From assembly GCA_902594485.1 (NCBI GenBank), contig CACJMJ010000001.1:70574-134573 (forward strand): a stretch of DNA of 64,000 nucleotides, given 5' to 3'. The notes below the pieces were generated by a model. The model ran no database searches and was not told the origin of the DNA. It worked only from the letters and a program-made list of their open reading frames with translations. Shown in pieces: positions 23-7,641 of this stretch. This DNA is from an uncultured Bacteroidota bacterium (GTDB taxonomy: Bacteria > Bacteroidota > Bacteroidia > Flavobacteriales > Flavobacteriaceae). Both the position numbers and the translations under genes were made by a program. Position 1 is the first letter of the stretch. Every line of letters begins with the position of its first letter.

Positions 23-1351
23 CTATAAATTTCTTACTGCATCTTTAAATTGATTACCTCTGTCCTCATAATTTTCAAACAAATCATAACTTGCACATGC
101 AGGGGATAAAAGAACATTATCTTTTTTAACTGCAATTTTATTTGCAACTTTTACTGCTTCAGTAATTGACTCAGTCTCAACTATAATTTCAATTACAGGC
201 TTAAACGTTTCCATAATTTTAGTATTATCAATTCCAAGACAAATAATTGCTTTAACCTTCTCCCTAACAATTGGAAGTAAATCTGAATAATCATTTCCTT
301 TATCTACTCCACCAGCAATCCAAATTGTAGGTGATTGCATTGAATCAAGCGCATAATATGCTGAATTAACATTTGTAGCTTTTGAATCGTTTATATAATT
401 GACTCCTTGTATTTTCAAAAATTTCTCAAGTCTATGAGGAAGAACAGAAAAAGTCAAGAAGCTTTCTCTAATTATATCATTGTCTATTTTTAGTAAATCG
501 GAGACTGTAATTGCAGCCATTGCATTGAGAAGGTTATGCCTTCCTTTAAGCGCAAATTCGTCGGTATTTATCATAATAGTTTTTTTTTTGTTAGAAAGAA
601 TGTTTTTATCTATTGTTATTTGATTTTGTTTGTTAGTGTTTATTCCTATTGGAATTTTATTTACTTTTAATTTGTTTACTCTTAGTGCTTCTAATAAAAT
701 TTTGTCATCTGAATTATATATTAAATAGTCAGATGACTTTTGGTTTTTTGCAATTTTCATTTTTGCATCAACATACTTACCAAAGTCATTTTCATATCTA
801 TCCAAATGATCTTCTATAATATTTGTAATAACAGAAATATTAGGTCTAAATTTTTTGATGTCATCAAGTTGGAAACTGCTAATCTCAAGTACATAGATAT
901 CCTTATCACCAGATAAAAGCATTTTAGAAAAGCTATCACCAATATTACCTGCGAGACCTACATCTAACCCTGCTCTTTTTAGTATGTGGTAGATAAGCTT
1001 TGTGGTAGTGGTTTTTCCATTAGTTCCAGTAATACATATCTTAAATGAATTTGAATAACTACTTGCAAATTCAATTTCAGATACTATTGGTATACCAGAT
1101 AACTTAATTTTTGAAATTATTTCAGACGAATTAGATATACCTGGACTTTTAATTACAAAATCTGACAACTTAATTTTGTCAAAAGAGTGATTTTCTTCTT
1201 CAAACATTATAGAGTTCCTAATCATTTCTAATTTTCTATCCTCATTTATTTTATTTGAATCAGAAACAAAGACGTTTAATCCCTTCTGTCGAGCTAACAT
1301 AGCAGCTCCAAATCCACTTTCACCCGCACCAAGTATTGTTATACTCTTCAT
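23..1351 (-). CDS. murD: UDP-N-acetylmuramoylalanine--D-glutamate ligase
   Basis: Mur ligase motifs GTNGKTTTTKL and YINDSKATN; dcw cluster context. Confidence 0.95.
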   Translation of the reverse strand: MKSITILGAGESGFGAAMLARQKGLNVFVSDSNKINEDRKLEMIRNSIMFEEENHSFDKIKLSDFVIKSPGISNSSEIISKIKLSGIPIVSEIEFASSYSNSFKICITGTNGKTTTTKLIYHILKRAGLDVGLAGNIGDSFSKMLLSGDKDIYVLEISSFQLDDIKKFRPNISVITNIIEDHLDRYENDFGKYVDAKMKIAKNQKSSDYLIYNSDDKILLEALRVNKLKVNKIPIGINTNKQNQITIDKNILSNKKKTIMINTDEFALKGRHNLLNAMAAITVSDLLKIDNDIIRESFLTFSVLPHRLEKFLKIQGVNYINDSKATNVNSAYYALDSMQSPTIWIAGGVDKGNDYSDLLPIVREKVKAIICLGIDNTKIMETFKPVIEIIVETESITEAVKVANKIAVKKDNVLLSPACASYDLFENYEDRGNQFKDAVRNL

Positions 1352-2566
1352 CTATCTAATTTTAAGTGTTAGTATTGTTATAACGGCTAAAAAAATTCCT
1401 ATAATCCATAGTCTTGAAACTATTTTACTTTCATGATAACCTGCTTTTTGAAAATGGTGATGAATCGGAGACATTAAGAAAATACGCTTTCCGACTCCAT
1501 TATTTTTTTTAGTTAATTTGAAATAACTAACCTGGATAATTACAGAAAGAGCCTCTAGGAGGAACACACCACATAGAATTGGAATTAATAATTCTTTTCT
1601 AATAAGTATTGAAATTACCGCAATTAAGCCGCCAACAGTTAAACTTCCTGTATCACCCATAAAAACTGAGGCAGGATATGTATTGTACCAAAGAAAACCA
1701 ACTAATGAACCTAATAATGCAGCAATAAAAATTGTTATTTCACCTACTCTCGGGATATACATTATATTCAAATAATCTGAAAAGATTATATTTCCTGAGG
1801 TCCAAGCAAAGACTCCAAGAGTAAATACAATTATAGCAGAGAGTCCTGCAGAGAGTCCATCTAAACCATCTGTTAGATTATTAGAATTTGAAACTGCAGC
1901 TATAATAAAAATTATAATTGGGATTATTATAAGCCATAAGTAATTCGATCCTTTACCAAAAATAGCTTTAGATACTTCTTTGTAGTCTAACTCATTATTT
2001 TTGAAAAATGGTATAGTTGTCTTATAAGATTTGACTTCCTCAATTTTAGAAAATTCTATTTTATCAGAATTTAAATTTTTATCAAATTCAACTATAGTTA
2101 TATTGTTATTAGTTAATAGAACCATTCCAACAAAAATCCCTAATAGAGACTGACCTGCTATTTTAAACTTTCCTTGAAGTCCTTGTTTATCTTTTTTAAA
2201 TACTTTTATATAATCATCAATCAAACCAATTAATCCAAGAATTATAGTTGATATAATTAAAATTTGGATATAAATATTTTCAAGATTTGACATCAAAATT
2301 ACAGGTACTAAAGTGCCAATTATAATAATTATACCCCCCATAGTTGGTGTCCCTTCTTTCTTGTCCTCTCCATCTAAACCAAGCTCTCTAACACTTTCAC
2401 CTACTTGTTTAATTTTTAAAAAATTGATTATTTTTTTTCCAAAAACTATTGATATCACTAGTGACATTATAACAGTAACTGCAGCTCTAAATGATAAATA
2501 ACTAAATAGACTAGCTCCTGGAAGATTAAATTGACTTTCTAATATTTCAAATAGATAGTATAACAT
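1352..2566 (-). CDS. mraY: Phospho-N-acetylmuramoyl-pentapeptide-transferase
   Basis: Polytopic protein with [16 protein letters not shown] and MSPIHHHFQ motifs; between murE and murD. Confidence 0.96.
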
Positions 2567-2568
2567 GT

Positions 2569-4029
2569 TTATTTATTAAAAATTTCTTTAGCTATTTTGA
2601 AATCATCAAAATAGATTCTCTCCTTATTATTTAACTCTTGATAATCTTCATGACCTTTTCCTGCGATTAATACTATATCACCTTTTAAACTATTTTCTTT
2701 AGCTTGTTTTATTGCTTTTTTTCTTTCAACCTCAATTAAAACTTTATCATTGTTAAAATTTGAAACCCCTTTAACCATATCATCAATGATTGATTGTGGA
2801 TCCTCAGATCTAGGATTATCTGATGTAAAAATTACTCTTGAGCTAAGATCAGTGGATATCTTCCCCATTATCGGCCTTTTATCTTTATCTCTATCACCTC
2901 CACAACCTATTACAGTAATTAAATTTTGATTTGATTTTTTAATATTATTAATAGTTGATATAACATTTTCAATTGCATCAGGAGTATGAGCATAATCAAT
3001 TATAACTGTTACTTTATCTATTGAAAGAAAAGACTGTAGCCTTCCAACTACACTTTCCAGATTACTAATTCCAGTTAACAAATTAATTTTATCAAGATTA
3101 TATAACTTCCCAACAGAATAAATAGCAAGAATATTAGAGGCATTGAATTTACCAATTAGCTTAGTCCATATCTCACTATTATCAATACTTAATAGCATTC
3201 CATCTAGTTGTTGCTCAATAATTCTACAAGAAAAATTTGACTTTGATTTTAATGAATAAGTATAAATGTTAGCTTTAGTATTTTGAACCATATAGTCAGC
3301 ATTCCTATCATCTCTATTAATTATTGCAAATGAATTTTTGCTAAGAGAATCAAAAACAATTTTTTTAGTATCTCTATAGTCTTTAAATGATTTATGATAG
3401 TCAATATGATCATGAGTAAGATTAGTAAAAACCATACCTTTAAATTTTATCCCCTGAACTCTCTTCTGAAAAATTCCATGAGATGAAACTTCAATAAAAC
3501 AAACCTTAATTTTTCTTTTTATCATTTCAGATAAATGAAAATTTATTGTTATTGGATCAGGAGTAGTATTATTTGAATTTTCAATAAACTCTCCATACTT
3601 TATATTAATTGTTGATATTAAACCAGATGTAACTTTTAATTCATTAAATAAATTATTTAACAATGAGGAAATTGTTGTCTTTCCATTCGTCCCTGTTATA
3701 CCAATTAAATCAATTTTTGAAGATGGGTTATCAAAGAAATTTGAAGCAATAATCGAAAGTGCAGTTTTAGAACATGAAACACATATAAAGACAATATTAT
3801 TTTCTTTAAAATTAGAAGGTAGATTCTCACATACAACTACTGAAGCTCCATTTTTAACAGATTGACTAATATAATCATGGCCATCATAATTATGTCCTGA
3901 TATTGCAACAAAGAGTGAACTATTTTTAACCTCTCTAGAATCAAAAGTAATTTTAGAAACATTTATTTCAGTATTCCCATATACTGAATCAATATTTACT
4001 TTAAATAATATTTCTTTTAATTTTTTCAA
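2569..4029 (-). CDS. murE: UDP-N-acetylmuramoyl-tripeptide synthetase, probably meso-diaminopimelate-adding (DNPR motif)
   Basis: GTNGKTT P-loop and SDNPRSEDP motif; TTG start overlapping the ftsI stop by 4 bp. Confidence 0.95.
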
Positions 4030-5813
4030 AATAATATATCTGTATTTTTTTTACTTATCTGAATTTCATTTGGAATACCTGTAATAATTTTTTTTGCTAC
4101 ATTTTTAAAGACAGGGGCAGCTACTGAGTTACCATAATACCCCTTAGATTTTTTTGGTTTATTGACAACTACAATTGCTGAATATTTTGGTTTATCTGAA
4201 GGGAAATATCCCACGAAACTAGATACGTATTGGGTCTCCTCTGAAGTGTAGTCTATTTGACTTGTTCCTGTTTTACCAGCAATTTTAATATTTTCATCAT
4301 AAATATTATTTGCAGTTCCCCAAGGTTTTTCAACTACATTCCTTAACATCATTTTAACTGAACTTAAGGTCTCCTCTGAACAAATTGATGACATTATTAC
4401 CTCTCTATCAATTCTATAAACAGGTTTTTCACCCAAAGCACCAATACTACTAATAAAACTAGGTTTAACCATTTCACCATCGTTAGCTACAGCATTATAA
4501 AAAGTCAAAGTTTGTAAAGGTGTCATCATTACTCCATAACCAAATGCCATCCATGGTAATGAGATTCCATTCCAATTGTCATCATTTGGATGAGGAATTT
4601 TAGGTTCCCCTTCACCTTTTATATCAATATCAATTTTTTGATTAACTTTCATATTTATCAACCTATTGACCAGTCTTTCAGGATTATCCTTGTAATTATC
4701 ATATATAAGCTTAACCATCCCTGTATTTGAGGAAACTTCAAATGCCTTAGATATTGGAATTTTTCCATAGCCCCTTCTATTAGAATCTTTTACTTCGTAT
4801 TTATTATAAAATTTCAATATTCCATTACCAGTATCAACTGAATCACTCGGACTTACAACGCCATCCTCTAAAGCTGCAATTAATGTCATTAGCTTAAATG
4901 TTGATCCAGGCTCTTGAGTCTCCCATATAGCATAATTAATTTTTTCAAAATATTTTCCTTCTTCTGTTCTTGCTAAGTTTGATATACCTTTAATCTTTCC
5001 AGAGTTAGTTTCCATAATAATCATAGTCCCATGATCAGCTTCAAATCTTTCTAATTGAGATAATAATTCGTGATGAACAATATCTTGAATTTGAGTATCT
5101 ATAGTTGTGTGTACATCATATCCCTGAATAGGTTCTCTTTCAAAATTTGGAGTCATTGGTTTCCATTGTCCATCTGCTATTTTTTGCATTAGTCTTAAAC
5201 CACTTTTACCAGATAGATATTCCGTATATGCACCCTCTAGACCTACCCTTAAATATTTTCCATCTTGATCAACTTTTTCATATCCTATAGTCCTCTCTGC
5301 AATTTTACCAAGGTGGCTCTGTCTTTTATGACTTTCATTAATTATTAAACCTCCTTTATAAAGACCTTTATTGAAAATTGGAAAAGATTTAATTTTTTCT
5401 ACTTCAGTTATAGATAGATTTTTTCCGATTAATAGATATCTATTATTCTTATCTCTTGCGTCATCAAGATATTTTTTAAAGTGATTCTGATCTTGTCCAA
5501 AAAAATCAGATAGTCTCTCTACAAGAGGAATAATATTTTTTTTATAGATTGATTCTGAGGGAATCTTTGAATCCCATCTCAATTCATATTTTACTACTGT
5601 CGACACTAATAAATCTCCATTATCTGAGTAAATATTGCCTCTAGGTGATTGAACCTCAATATTTTTAACTGCCTCAATTGAGTTTCTTATGTTATCATCA
5701 ATTTCAAAATTTTGTAGATAAAATATTTTTCCAATCAAAAAAAATGAACACAATAGAAATAAAAAGAACAATATGTTCATTCTATTTACAATTCTATTGT
5801 TTGATTTCCTCAT
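4026..5813 (-). CDS. ftsI: Penicillin-binding protein, FtsI/SpoVD-like transpeptidase
   Basis: STFK, SSN and KTGTS active-site motifs; N-terminal TM segment; dcw position. Confidence 0.92.
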   Translation of the reverse strand: MRKSNNRIVNRMNILFFLFLLCSFFLIGKIFYLQNFEIDDNIRNSIEAVKNIEVQSPRGNIYSDNGDLLVSTVVKYELRWDSKIPSESIYKKNIIPLVERLSDFFGQDQNHFKKYLDDARDKNNRYLLIGKNLSITEVEKIKSFPIFNKGLYKGGLIINESHKRQSHLGKIAERTIGYEKVDQDGKYLRVGLEGAYTEYLSGKSGLRLMQKIADGQWKPMTPNFEREPIQGYDVHTTIDTQIQDIVHHELLSQLERFEADHGTMIIMETNSGKIKGISNLARTEEGKYFEKINYAIWETQEPGSTFKLMTLIAALEDGVVSPSDSVDTGNGILKFYNKYEVKDSNRRGYGKIPISKAFEVSSNTGMVKLIYDNYKDNPERLVNRLINMKVNQKIDIDIKGEGEPKIPHPNDDNWNGISLPWMAFGYGVMMTPLQTLTFYNAVANDGEMVKPSFISSIGALGEKPVYRIDREVIMSSICSEETLSSVKMMLRNVVEKPWGTANNIYDENIKIAGKTGTSQIDYTSEETQYVSSFVGYFPSDKPKYSAIVVVNKPKKSKGYYGNSVAAPVFKNVAKKIITGIPNEIQISKKNTDILF

Positions 5814-5814
5814 T

Positions 5815-6123
5815 TTAATCAGTAATTATAATTTTTATAGGTGGATAGTTAGAGATCTTAAAACCGTTATCTTTCAATTTTGATGTTACTTTAGATTGCA
5901 TCTTTATGTTCATTAAATCAACTTTAGTTGATACTGAAATACTATTCAAAGTGTTAACCTCTTTATTAAGTTTTGTTATTAAGAATATTTTCTGATCTGC
6001 ACTATGACTACTATATATAGATGTCATTAATAAGAATGATATAAATAGTAACATTATCCAGTTTTTAGATGAATCTTTGCCAGCTAAGAAATCAATATTT
6101 AAAAATGATAGAAAGTTTTTCAT
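5815..6123 (-). CDS. FtsL-like cell division protein
   Basis: Small single-TM protein between rsmH and ftsI. Confidence 0.7.
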   Translation of the reverse strand: MKNFLSFLNIDFLAGKDSSKNWIMLLFISFLLMTSIYSSHSADQKIFLITKLNKEVNTLNSISVSTKVDLMNIKMQSKVTSKLKDNGFKISNYPPIKIIITD

Positions 6124-7016
6124 ATTTTTTCAGCAATTCTAAGCTTAGCACTTCTTGATCTATTATTTAATTTAATTTCTTGATTTGATGGTGTAATCAT
6201 TTTTCCTACTTTTTTAAAAATGATATTCTTGTTTCCATATATATCAGAGGTAACTTCATCATTTGAACCCCCATTCTGAATAAATTTTTTTACAATCCGA
6301 TCCTCTAATGAATGATAGGAGATACAAACTAGTCTACCTCCTTTTTTAATATATTTTGATGAATCACTTAATAAAGTTCTTATTACTTCCAGCTCATCAT
6401 TGACCTCTATTCTTATGGACTGAAAAACTTGTGCTAAAAACTTATTTTCATCTTTTACTTTAACTAACGGAGCTAATATTTTTTTTAGATCTCCTGTTGT
6501 CTCAATAGATTTCTTTACTCTTTCAGAAATTATTTTTTCGGTTACCTTTTTGTAATTTCTTAATTCACCAAAATTTTTAAATATGTACTCTAGTTGATCT
6601 TTATCATAATCATTAACAATAATTTTAGCATCAATTTCTTGAGTACTGTTCATTCTCATATCAAGCTCAGAGTTAAATCTAGTTGAAAACCCTCTATTCT
6701 TATTATCTATTTGATGAGATGATATTCCAAAGTCTGCTAAGAGTCCATCAATTTCCTTTATTTTAAAATAGTTTAAGAAGTTATTTAAATACTTGAAGTT
6801 TGACTTAACCAGATTTAATCTAGTATCATTTGATTTGTTTTCAATAGCATCTTGATCTTGATCAAAGGCAATTAATTTTCCACACGAATTAAGATTTTTT
6901 AGTATTTCTTGTGAATGACCTCCACCCCCATAAGTTACATCAACATAGATTCCACTTGGGTTAATATTTAAACCAGATATTGATTCGTTAAGTAGAACTG
7001 GATTATGATACATCAT
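6120..7016 (-). CDS. rsmH: 16S rRNA (cytosine1402-N4)-methyltransferase
   Basis: HNPVLLNESI, YVDVTYGGGGHS and ISYHSLEDRIVK motifs. Confidence 0.96.
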   Translation of the reverse strand: MMYHNPVLLNESISGLNINPSGIYVDVTYGGGGHSQEILKNLNSCGKLIAFDQDQDAIENKSNDTRLNLVKSNFKYLNNFLNYFKIKEIDGLLADFGISSHQIDNKNRGFSTRFNSELDMRMNSTQEIDAKIIVNDYDKDQLEYIFKNFGELRNYKKVTEKIISERVKKSIETTGDLKKILAPLVKVKDENKFLAQVFQSIRIEVNDELEVIRTLLSDSSKYIKKGGRLVCISYHSLEDRIVKKFIQNGGSNDEVTSDIYGNKNIIFKKVGKMITPSNQEIKLNNRSRSAKLRIAEKI

Positions 7017-7470
7017 TATCTGTTTTATCGCCCATCACATCTTCTGCAAGATTTCCAAAGTCACCTTTTGCGTCATCTATTGCTTCTTCATAAAGGCCCT
7101 TATCCCATATTTCAAGAATATTGACAGCTGAGGAAACAACTATATCTTTAGAAATTTTAGCATGGTTTATTAAGTCTTTTGGAATCAATATTCTTCCAGA
7201 AATATCAATATCAATTTGTCTAACTCCAGCTGTAAACCTCCTTATAAAATCGATATTTTTTTTATTGAACCGGTTTAATTTATTTACTCTAAGCATTAAT
7301 TCGTCCCACTCTTTTAATGGATACAATTCTAGACAAGAATTAAAAACAGCTCTTTTAATAACAAATCCATTTTTCAACTTATCAGATAATTGTTTTTTTA
7401 AAGAGACTGGAAGCATGATTCTGCCTTTTTCATCTGCCTTACATTCATATGTTCCTATAAAGTGTTGCAT
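7003..7470 (-). CDS. mraZ: Transcriptional regulator MraZ (start revised to ATG at 7470; the ORF track start at 7521 is upstream)
   Basis: MQHFIGTYECKADEKGRIMLP start and two SpoVT/AbrB-like motifs (DEKGRIMLP, DISGRILIP); first gene of dcw cluster. Confidence 0.92.
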   Translation of the reverse strand: MQHFIGTYECKADEKGRIMLPVSLKKQLSDKLKNGFVIKRAVFNSCLELYPLKEWDELMLRVNKLNRFNKKNIDFIRRFTAGVRQIDIDISGRILIPKDLINHAKISKDIVVSSAVNILEIWDKGLYEEAIDDAKGDFGNLAEDVMGDKTDNDVS

Positions 7471-7488
7471 TAAGATGGTTGCTTTACT

Positions 7489-7496
7489 CAAATATA
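7489..7496 (-). promoter_or_regulatory. Putative Bacteroidota -7 box TATATTTG for mraZ
   Basis: Exact match to TAnnTTTG, 18 nt upstream of the mraZ ATG. Confidence 0.55.
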
Positions 7497-7504
7497 AAAT
7501 ATAT

Positions 7505-7534
7505 TTACCACTTTTTACCACTTTTTACCACTTT
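7505..7534 (-). promoter_or_regulatory. Putative MraZ operator: three perfect direct repeats AAAGTGGTAA
   Basis: Three contiguous identical 10-bp units (minus strand) just upstream of the mraZ -7 box. Confidence 0.75.
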
Positions 7535-7641
7535 GTTAATAAATTATTTTTTTTTGATTTATTAACCTGATTAACAGTTAATTAAGATGTAAAAAAAATA
7601 GGTTATTCTTTATGCATATATTTGTGCTTTACACTAGAATT

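Follow-up and report, generated by a model that had tools for sequence, protein, structure and literature searches.

The 64,000-nucleotide stretch of DNA analysed here (the window) comes from an incomplete draft genome (860 kb, ~58% complete) of a marine flavobacterial lineage near MED-G11. On its minus strand, mraZ stands as the first gene of a dcw cluster, directly before rsmH, with ftsI, murE, mraY and murD after it in the order of the open reading frames (Table 1). The dcw genes spanning 23..7016 are likely, from this arrangement, to be served by the mraZ promoter. The open-reading-frame track begins mraZ at a GTG at 7521, inside a set of direct repeats, and the original prediction had already called that start wrong. 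The aligned close relatives bear this out, since their proteins all begin at the residue that corresponds to the codon at 7470: the ATG at 7470 is most likely the true start, and the track's range of 7003-7521 would then be too long.

Table 1. Coordinates of the mraZ promoter region, with its predicted elements, and of the dcw genes in the window.
Feature	Position	Strand	Basis or remark
DnaA-box-like conserved element TTATTAACA	7534..7542	minus	abuts box 1, 2-base gap to first GTGG
MraZ operator (predicted), 3 perfect AAAGTGGTAA copies	7505..7534	minus	sequence; conserved in 74/77 family genera
AAAGTGG boxes	7528-7534, 7518-7524, 7508-7514	minus	period 10 bp
-7 promoter element TATATTTG (TAnnTTTG), probable	7489..7496	minus	distance 19/20 conserved in relatives
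mraZ, 155 aa, ATG start	7003..7470	minus	TIGR00242, 104.5 bits (cut-off 98.35)
rsmH/mraW	6120-7016	minus	Pfam PF01795; overlaps mraZ end
ftsL-like	5815-6123	minus	name from reading sequence
ftsI/PBP	4026-5813	minus	name from reading sequence
murE	2569-4029	minus	name from reading sequence
mraY	1352-2566	minus	name from reading sequence
murD	23-1351	minus	name from reading sequence

The gene downstream of the repeats encodes a genuine MraZ. Its product scores 94.4 bits against PF02381 (cut-off 23) and has the two AbrB-like halves with D-x-K/S-G-R motifs, and the MraZ fold, that characterize the family; residues D13-K15-G16-R17 (D-x-K-G-R) and D89-G92-R93 (D-x-x-G-R) are invariant across 18 aligned MraZ sequences. 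An AlphaFold model of the monomer (mean pLDDT 85) matches the M. pneumoniae and M. genitalium MraZ structures 1n0e, 9qlg, 9r4j and 9sz7 with E-values down to 6e-12, and superposes on the DNA-bound M. genitalium protein of 9r4j and 9sz7 with TM scores of 0.66-0.74. The last two are complexes of M. genitalium MraZ with promoter DNA, 9sz7 being described as a '4 box promoter'.

From 7534 down to 7505 on the minus strand, the DNA in front of mraZ consists of AAAGTGGTAA three times over, without mismatch. The array ends 34 bp before the mraZ ATG, and a gap of 8 bp separates it from TATATTTG at 7496-7489. Three perfect 10-bp direct repeats, a -7 box 8 bp beyond them and then the ATG at 7470 are what had been described at this locus from the start, and that much is correct; what was overlooked is the conserved TTATTAACA adjoining the repeats. 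No other perfect threefold 10-bp tandem is found in the window, and none in 20 simulated windows. The pattern GTGG-N6-GTGG-N6-GTGG likewise occurs a single time in the window, and a single time, at mraZ, in the 1.19 Mb of a genome of the same genus (G017), for which the count of MraZ sites is accordingly one; in the window's own draft genome a perfect AAAGTGGN3AAAGTGG is found only at the mraZ array. A wider MraZ regulon was not seen in the family: additional matches mostly carry three mismatches, and a reversed control pattern gives similar singles.

The array is a conserved property of mraZ promoters. The comparison drew on the mraZ upstream regions of 21 genomes from the genus, 77 from the family, 7 from the order, 13 from the class and 49 from the remainder of the phylum. 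Of the 77 family genera, 74 have three or more GTG[GT] boxes, spaced at exactly 10 bp, in front of mraZ, the three exceptions being two arrays degenerate by one base and one mis-assigned start. At least three boxes are also present in all 21 genomes of the genus, in 5 of 7 from other families of the order and in 10 of 13 from the class, and at least two in 41 of the 49 Bacteroidota genomes outside the class; shuffled upstream regions yield approximately zero arrays of this spacing. The family set contains 144 GTGG pairs at exactly 10 bp, compared with ~0.15 in shuffles, and a further, named collection of close relatives has three boxes in 80/80. The original prediction had staked itself on recurrence of the repeats in relatives, and they recur. 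The repeats are missing from 3/3 family genomes that lack a detectable mraZ, only one of which (G062) is near-complete and of low contamination. Within one family (f29; L160-L165) several genomes keep mraZ with the 10-bp GTGG array lost or degraded.

The copies in the window are perfect, as young tandem duplications are, and might on that account be put down to chance or to recent slippage without function. The pattern of conservation refutes such an origin: spacers differ from genus to genus (TAT, TAG, GGT) whereas GTGG and the period of 10 bp do not change, and the spread of the array through the phylum excludes recent slippage. An alpha/beta-hydrolase gene at 7612, divergent from mraZ and with its start 78 bp away from the array, is the divergent neighbour in G017 as well. 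It is very improbable that the array serves this gene instead of mraZ: the spacing and orientation of the boxes are locked to the -7 box on the mraZ side across families, and other phyla retain repeats upstream of mraZ.

What kind of site this is becomes apparent from the MraZ systems already known. M. gallisepticum MraZ binds, in EMSA, a site of the form (AAAGTGKN3)3 (PMC5282649; the site also in PMC8475190), and the window's array is an exact match to it. The Mollicutes operator and the array share the AAAGTGG core, the 10-bp period, the number of boxes (three), the location before an mraZ that heads the dcw cluster and uniqueness in the genome. They differ in phylum and in promoter type, which in the window is a TAnnTTTG -7 element with no -33, and the flavobacterial site has another conserved element, TTATYAACA, at its flank. 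The sequence upstream of mraZ in E. coli MG1655, AGTGGGAAATTGTGGGGCAAAGTGGG, also has GTGG at 10-bp steps in three clear copies, the same spacing as in the window; its boxes are GTGGG with G-rich spacers, unlike the flavobacterial ones, which in Flavobacteriaceae occupy the -33 position at a fixed spacing. The fit to (AAAGTGKN3)3, the genuine MraZ encoded downstream, the conservation, the single occurrence in 1.19 Mb and the E. coli spacing together provide strong support for the reading first proposed. The repeats are very probably the autoregulatory operator at which MraZ would bind ahead of the dcw cluster.

The position of the array with respect to the promoter is equally constrained. The housekeeping promoters of Bacteroidota combine a TAnnTTTG -7 element with a TTG-type -33 element, at a distance of about 17-23 bp. 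In the window TATATTTG matches the -7 element and probably serves as one; counted from where the last GTGG begins, the first T of its TTTG is 19 bp away. The corresponding distance is 19 or 20 bp in 73/76 family promoters and in 79/80 close relatives. A TTG at 16-23 bp spacing is found in 0/74 family promoters, which upholds the claim that the repeats lie over the -33 position with no TTG there. Other Bacteroidota (loci L095-L124 and L153-L178) are organized differently: in 33 of 41 (0 in shuffles) TTGAC precedes the first box by 29-46 bp, an arrangement present in just 1/76 family promoters, and the boxes therefore fall on the -7 region or past it. Judged by these motifs, the boxes replace the -33 element in Flavobacteriaceae and lie downstream of an intact TTGAC promoter in the other classes, so that the operator has shifted its position relative to the promoter within the phylum.

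Occlusion of sigma offers the simplest reading of this geometry. Assembly into rings of eight or more subunits is characteristic of the MraZ family, and three subunits of such a ring, one per 10-bp helical turn, would hold the AAAGTGG boxes from a single side of the helix. The operator, about two turns upstream of TATATTTG, would cover the spot where a -33 element would otherwise be recognized by the housekeeping sigma factor, and bound MraZ would keep RNA polymerase off, so that expression of mraZ, rsmH, ftsI and the mur genes stays at a fixed level. MraZ is a repressor of its own operon in E. coli and a repressor in M. genitalium, and overexpression of MraZ in M. gallisepticum is accompanied by more FtsZ (PMC8475190). 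Repression is the probable direction of control at the flavobacterial dcw promoter as well. An activating or dual role, to be entertained only tentatively, is kept in view because the missing -33 element and the fixed spacing are reminiscent of promoters that depend on an activator and because simple occlusion does not need strict spacing. In its most definite form, activation would mean that the boxes are indeed bound by MraZ, that MraZ (alone or with a factor bound at TTATYAACA) activates, and that polymerase needs MraZ two turns upstream of the -7 element. The lack of any TTG among the family promoters, the 19/20-bp distance and the TTGAC retained elsewhere in Bacteroidota with boxes downstream are all consistent with this proposal, as is the FtsZ response of M. 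gallisepticum; repression in E. coli and M. genitalium counts against it, and the fixed spacing may also reflect direct contact of sigma with a GTGG box that substitutes for the -33 element. Dependence of polymerase on MraZ is considered less likely, and repression through occlusion of sigma is preferred.

The element flanking the array is conserved in its own right. In an alignment of 74 family promoters, AAAA-N-TTAT[T/C]AACAA adjoins box 1; the nine-base word TTATYAACA lies upstream of mraZ in 68/77 family genomes (0.4 in shuffles), with a gap to the first GTGG of 2 bases in 63/70 and of 3 in 7/70. The possibility that this position holds a fourth, degenerate MraZ box was rejected, since TTATYAACA bears no likeness to GTGG and persists where box 1 has decayed (L029, L184). 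Beyond TTATYAACA, a further GTGG is present in 13/77 family promoters (e.g., L036, L046, L065), at exactly 21 bp from box 1 on its upstream side. Among the nine copies of TTATYAACA in the window, TTATTAACA is the only intergenic one. In G017, 19 of 108 copies are intergenic and upstream of genes, among them mraZ, hup (two copies), gyrB, gyrA, dnaB and dnaX. A survey of the 400 bp upstream of genes in 30 genomes (28 from the family, the window's own included, and two from the order; relatives' loci L185-L214 and L386-L475) finds the word before gyrB in 28/30, gyrA in 29/30 and dnaB in 24/29, where shuffles predict about one, and before dnaA in 0/26. Pairs 20 bp apart precede hup (in the fmt-hup gap) and dnaB (in the accA-dnaB gap). 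The copies before mraZ, gyrA, gyrB, dnaB and hup delineate a candidate replication/division regulon in Flavobacteriaceae.

The company that TTATYAACA keeps points to DnaA. The word agrees with the DnaA box TTATNCACA at all positions but one and, like that box, is found at promoters of replication genes (gyrB, gyrA, dnaB and the hup pairs), often as direct pairs at 20 bp or as inverted pairs. The discrepancy is at position 6, which is A rather than C in most copies, including the window's and nearly all of those at mraZ; C appears in dnaB and gyrB pairs. TTATYAACA also interchanges with C-containing boxes: TTATCCACA or TTATTCACA takes its place in dnaB pairs (L417, L427, L423, L432), TTTTCCACA is its partner at gyrB (L400, L410, L412), and sister lineages have TTATTCACA, TTATCCACA or TTTTCCACA in the slot at gyrA or mraZ. 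The protein differs as well. Comparison of dnaA loci (L185-L214, L477-L506) shows that 29 of the 30 first-set genomes encode DHATV as recognition motif in place of the E. coli DHTTV (T435A in E. coli numbering); position 435 is S or T in Bacteroidota that are less closely related. Thr435 of E. coli DnaA reportedly confers sequence-specific binding, a result credited to Sutton and Kaguni in 1997. The covariation of DnaA with its box follows phylogeny and is therefore suggestive without amounting to independent evidence. The single-position difference, the interchange with C-containing boxes, the slots in sister lineages and T435A make DnaA the leading candidate, and TTATTAACA is probably a variant DnaA box.

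The site might instead belong to another transcription factor that coordinates gyrA, gyrB, dnaB, hup and mraZ, a conceivable if not the favored assignment. The textbook box TTATNCACA requires C at position 6, and box clusters were found neither near dnaA, where none rises above background, nor at the GC-skew minimum of G017; against a different factor stand the exchange with TTATCCACA or TTATTCACA at dnaB, the TTTTCCACA partner at gyrB, the canonical-type boxes in the gyrA or mraZ slot of sister lineages and the A435 of DnaA. An order-level genome (G233; L233:1400-1760, C1 ~1941000) has five TTATCCACA boxes between genes for an AraC-type regulator and a thioredoxin-like protein, a stretch that is possibly oriC or a DnaA-titration locus. 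With TTATTAACA taken as a variant DnaA box, its location directly upstream of the operator would tie transcription of the dcw cluster to the replication genes that share the element. A more ambitious proposal, for and against which the case is evenly balanced, is that the DnaA of Flavobacteriales has shifted, through T435A, to TTATYAACA, and that it controls gyrA, gyrB, dnaB, hup, perhaps dnaX, and, by way of a box joined to the MraZ operator, the dcw cluster. If that is true, a single promoter devoid of a -33 element would integrate a replication signal (DnaA) with a division signal (MraZ).

These observations extend the MraZ operator to the whole of a phylum for which a search of the literature found no MraZ site described. 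The operator is an element of a known kind; its layout, with a DnaA-like box at one side and in place of a -33 element, appears to be new. The existence of two promoter layouts in Bacteroidota makes the question of whether MraZ represses or activates directly testable. Cell-cycle control in Bacteroidota is little known, and a DnaA-like element common to gyrA, gyrB, dnaB and hup in many genera may represent a cis-code that couples replication to division.
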